From Pseudomonadota bacterium (GTDB lineage: Bacteria > Pseudomonadota > Alphaproteobacteria > UBA8366), in assembly GCA_036339585.1 (NCBI GenBank), contig JAYZAS010000007.1, positions 1 to 64,000 of the forward strand: a stretch of 64,000 nucleotides of DNA. The letters are read 5' to 3'. Each line of letters opens with the position of its first letter. Position 1 is the first letter of the stretch. Below are positions 16,210-16,371 of the stretch, piece after piece. The notes under the pieces are model-generated. The model made no database searches. It was not told the origin of the DNA and saw only the letters and a program-made list of their open reading frames with translations. The position numbers and the translations under genes were made by a program.

Positions 16210-16371
16210 ATGTCTCAAGGTAGAATAAAATATGCTCTTATTTTATTGAGTGCAATTATAACCTTTTTTATTATTAAATTTACAACTATTCTAGTCGGGC
16301 TTAGGGTTGGAAAAGAGGCTGAGACTGAAGGTCTTGACCTCGCCGAACATGGCGAGCGCGGCTATAATTAG
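16210..16371 (+). pseudogene. AmtB C-terminal fragment: last membrane helix plus cytosolic tail
   Basis: A 53-codon frame, ATG 16210 to TAG 16371, encodes one hydrophobic helix (residues about 8-30, [20 protein letters not shown]) and then [20 protein letters not shown] with a closing RGYN. This matches the end of Amt ammonium channels, whose family pattern is GLRV-x(4-7)-EGLD-x(3)-HGERAY. The rest of the roughly 400-residue channel is absent and the frame is closed by a stop at 16195. The tail is the part that takes part in P-II (GlnK) docking in full channels, and a P-II gene follows 16 nt later. It is either a relic or an expressed mini-protein; the ribosome-binding site is weak. Confidence 0.8.

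Follow-up and report, generated by a model that had tools for sequence, protein, structure and literature searches.

A 53-codon frame beside an intact P-II gene is very probably a deletion remnant of the ammonium channel gene amtB2

Gene organization of the locus

The stretch of DNA analysed here (64,000 nt, referred to as the window) carries a 53-codon open reading frame on the plus strand at 16210-16371, which opens with ATG and closes with TAG. The ATG of a P-II gene lies at 16388, 16 nt past this TAG. The P-II gene (16388-16726, plus strand) is intact and encodes 112 amino acids, including a T-loop with Tyr51, as established with PF00543 (110.1 bits) and by alignment with its orthologues. 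The two frames are flanked by an HtrA/Deg-type protease gene upstream (14467-15885, plus strand; named from its sequence) and by a crcB-type gene downstream (16727-17146, plus strand; PF02537). Both neighbours are conserved in the genomes G001 and G002, where the protease gene is collinear and the crcB-type gene holds the same position, and they served as synteny anchors. Together with the window's own genome (G000), G001 and G002 form the genus sample of three genomes, all of them draft assemblies.

The start of the crcB-type gene abuts the P-II stop codon without a gap and its Shine-Dalgarno sequence is almost absent (-1.7 kcal/mol), and therefore translational coupling of this gene to P-II is suggested.

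A profile search matched residues 7-52 of the short frame to the end of the Amt family profile PF00909 with 31.5 bits (cut-off 23.2 bits), the homology being confined to profile positions 354-399. Comparison with solved structures revealed similarity of residues 11-53 to helix M11 and the tail of E. coli AmtB. The 53 residues contain one hydrophobic stretch and lack the 11 transmembrane helices with pore and vestibule of an Amt channel. This frame was the only Amt match of the profile search within the 64,000-nt window, and a full amtB is thus absent from it, as the preliminary description had stated. No Rfam match was obtained around the frame up to E = 1.

Comparison with orthologous loci

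In G002, which belongs to the same genus, a complete 436-codon amtB (hereafter amtB2; counted from the aligned ATG) is found at the identical locus, flanked as in the window by an htrA-type gene upstream and by P-II and then crcB downstream. Its start reads MSREITRHGIISFCI... in G002 and MSQGRIKYALILLSA in the window when the two are compared without gaps. Measured from start to stop codon, stop included, the gene has 437 codons in G002 and 54 in the window, so that 1,149 nt (383 codons), including helices 1-10, were lost with the frame kept. The lost codons include the parts needed for function.

BLASTN searches of the window against G001 and G002 returned two collinear pieces each. The first extends from htrA across the intergenic DNA and ends at 16257 in the comparison with G001 and at 16177 in that with G002, to which similarity is lower; the second begins at 16245 and continues through the tail, P-II, crcB and further; against G001, the two overlap by 13 nt at the junction. 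Either end of amtB2 aligns collinearly with the window DNA, at 83-93% identity. Base-by-base alignment with G001 and G002 at the start of amtB2 assigned 16210-16254 (plus strand) to the 5' remnant of the gene, namely the native start and the first ~15 codons, which correspond to the signal peptide's n-region and part of its h-region. The 3' remnant (16255-16371, plus strand) comprises most of the last helix, the cytosolic tail and the native TAG, as judged from the PF00909 match and from DNA collinear with G001 and G002. Between them, the deletion junction was placed at 16245-16258 (plus strand) with the crossover at about 16253 to 16258, since the window follows the 5' parent as far as ~16253 and matches the 3' parent from ~16254/16258 onwards. 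The breakpoint sits at a short imperfect homology, where the parental sequences in the relatives share runs of only a few bases.

Because the ATG and the first ~15 codons align with the signal-peptide start of amtB in the relatives, the frame is a fusion of both ends of one gene. The preliminary description had taken it to encode only the last Amt helix and the tail: the ATG-to-TAG frame, the helix and tail match and the 16-nt gap to P-II are as described, and the 5' end belongs to the amtB signal peptide.

Full-length orthologues at the same locus are present in G002 and in most relatives of the order. P-II lies directly downstream of an amtB2-type amtB in 24 of the 25 orthologous loci from relatives of the order (L004-L028), and the remaining locus runs off its contig. 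In these genomes (G002 C2, G005 C19, G009 C44 and others) P-II follows the amtB stop codon as it follows the TAG in the window; within the genus, the htrA and crcB neighbours are also common to both, and the amtB2 start and tail align in the window, from which 383 of the 436 codons are absent. Since 24 of 25 loci have this order, amtB2 followed by P-II is, on comparison of gene order, the ancestral arrangement here, and the earlier idea that the tail-then-P-II order reverses the usual glnK-amtB order does not hold; it is the normal order at this locus. The same description had considered a relic that has stayed open, and had held that related genomes with a full amtB at this position would make the frame a simple pseudogene; G002 and most relatives of the order have such a gene, and the copy in G001 is frame-broken.

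Decay of amtB2 in the nearest relative and the intact paralogue

The nearest relative, G001 (PBCW01000028.1, Rhodospirillaceae bacterium MAG SP3966), shares 91-93% DNA identity with the window (BLASTN). A contig scan with CrcB for more close relatives returned only this record and distant CrcB genes. The body of amtB2 is present in G001, with two 1-nt insertions, two 1-nt deletions, a TGG to TAG change at codon 276 and a TTG start. The locus is that of the window frame, and amtB2 can no longer be translated there in one piece; the damage differs in kind, being small indels and a nonsense codon in a gene whose body is still there. The G001 assembly contains scattered N; general sequence error is nevertheless not a likely cause of the lesions, because the neighbouring genes align end to end (rpsK, rpoA, rplQ, htrA, P-II, crcB, rluC and an HAD gene each form one unbroken frame in the alignment). 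The dN/dS of amtB2 between G001 and G002 is 0.20, which indicates that selection acted on the gene in G001 until recently.

Elsewhere in the window's genome, the full amtB that the preliminary description had proposed to look for was found in one complete copy (amtB1, G000:C4:430729-431931), with P-II at 432089-432406 in the usual glnK-amtB order. Matches to the P-II family in this genome number four in all; the fourth is divergent (38 bits) and lies at G000:C13:32055-32336.

Short Amt frames in other genomes

No other stand-alone Amt tail was found among 29 genomes of the order with at least 90% completeness, and the frame is thus not conserved across several genomes. The short-frame matches were examined in part, and none of those examined supports a recurrent family of stand-alone tails. 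Three come from genomes of lower quality: a frame-shifted full gene in G001, a piece cut off by the contig edge in G032 and, in G019 (C1), what remains of a third amt, interrupted by an internal stop. In G010 (C259), just the final ~98 residues of an amtB1-type gene are present, close to where the contig ends. No published description of an Amt-tail frame of this form was found in the open-access literature.

In G019, a genome from a different family of the order, glnK-amtB1 is followed by a third amt paralogue that has independently suffered an internal deletion (L056: 1869-2300, minus strand). It retains the signal peptide and M1 region, an internal stop, and the last helix and tail. As in the window, what remains of an amt paralogue is its beginning, fused to its final helix and tail; unlike the window frame, the G019 relic belongs to a different amt subfamily, occupies a different place (after glnK-amtB1) and contains an internal stop. 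Internal-deletion relics of extra amt genes have therefore arisen more than once in the order, in support of redundant copies being lost in the ordinary way.

Origin of the short frame

We consider it about 0.9 probable that the 53-codon frame is an ordinary remnant left by a deletion in amtB2, next to a P-II gene that is itself intact, rather than a new mini-protein for tethering. This reading is carried by the amtB2 homology at either end of the frame, by the in-frame deletion, by synteny, by the broken copy in G001 and by the intact paralogue. On this reading, amtB2 was the first gene of an amtB2-P-II pair. A single deletion within the gene then took out 1,149 nt, probably between short stretches that match imperfectly. 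The first ~15 codons (signal peptide) thereby came to stand in frame with the last ~38 (helix 11 and tail); the whole channel was lost, and P-II, intact, now sits downstream of the former amtB2 leader and stop codon. Any short product that is made would most likely lack a function. Ammonium uptake would be supplied by the canonical glnK-amtB1 pair elsewhere, which would make amtB2 redundant, and this redundancy may have been the cause of its loss.

The openness of the frame says little and needs no selection, because in simulations of neutral change from the present frame, at 4% divergence (about half the G000-G001 distance), the share of runs in which it survived, start and stop included, ranged from 0.37 when indels were modelled to 0.68 when they were not. 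What speaks against a mere remnant is that the deletion preserved the reading frame, for which the chance is one in three, and that the start and stop codons are undamaged. Among the 37 tail codons, G000 and G001 differ by three silent and three replacement changes, a ratio of 0.29 that comes from few sites and from a branch partly older than the deletion. Judged by eye with G002 as reference, and again in small numbers, the window branch has no replacements and two or three silent changes, and all three replacements fall on the G001 branch. Constraint and a recent deletion would each account for such a distribution.

A residual use of the frame is nevertheless conceivable, if rather unlikely: ribosomes starting at the old amtB2 ATG might deliver translation to the P-II start, in which case the frame would be kept for coupling and not for its peptide. 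The native start and stop codons and the 16-nt spacing to P-II are preserved, the intergenic DNA upstream is still there and can be aligned with that of both relatives, and P-II itself is intact. However, P-II has its own Shine-Dalgarno sequence of unchanged strength (-6.3 kcal/mol in the window vs -6.2 and -5.8 in the relatives), that of the short frame is weakened (-3.4 kcal/mol vs -9.5 for amtB2 in G001 and -10.0 in G002), and survival of the frame through a deletion is expected one time in three. The two readings can hold together, the frame being a remnant by descent with a residual use as leader. We regard it as highly improbable that selection has kept the in-frame fusion of Amt signal peptide and tail, as a small membrane protein or as a leader acting on the adjacent P-II, after the channel was lost.

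Equally small is the chance of an assembly or binning artefact, in which the strain would have a full amtB2 whose middle was skipped by the assembler. The window's genome is a draft in 25 contigs; however, the few-base runs shared at the junction in the relatives are too short for an assembler collapse, and no leftover amtB2 body occurs anywhere in the assembly, which scored 100% complete.

In the AmtB-GlnK complex, GlnK inserts its T-loop into the cytoplasmic vestibule of the trimeric AmtB, and the tail of Amt participates in this complex as well (PMC10433425). The E. coli complex (PDB 2NUU) has an M11 and tail similar in sequence to the window frame, but in a full 11-helix trimeric channel with a vestibule for the T-loop. 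The short product would begin with a basic signal-peptide n-region followed by ~24 mostly hydrophobic residues without a signal-peptidase site, and because of this its N-terminus would probably be inside and, by the positive-inside rule, its tail probably outside the cytoplasm. A mini-protein that holds P-II at the membrane but does not transport ammonium, as the preliminary description had offered, is very unlikely: the tail sequence is conserved, but the vestibule receiving the T-loop is wholly deleted, the orientation is probably flipped, the Shine-Dalgarno sequence is weak, and none of the other genomes searched has such a form. The candidate mini-protein is accordingly removed from consideration.

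P-II without its channel

Read as a deletion remnant of amtB2, the frame itself is ordinary. The genus is losing an extra ammonium channel, by a clean deletion in the window and by small lesions in G001, with the P-II partner gene intact. With its channel gone, such a P-II could offer a natural experiment on P-II roles beyond Amt gating. The protein branches for P-II measure 0.044 (G001), 0.014 (window) and 0.009 (G002); based on these small numbers, the faster change in G001 may partly reflect relaxed constraint after channel loss.

At the nucleotide level, the P-II gene beside the broken amtB2 of G001 (L033 / L045) differs from that of the window by 8 replacement and 8 silent changes, including V53S near the T-loop. 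Between the window and G002, 5 replacement and 40 silent differences were counted in the P-II gene.
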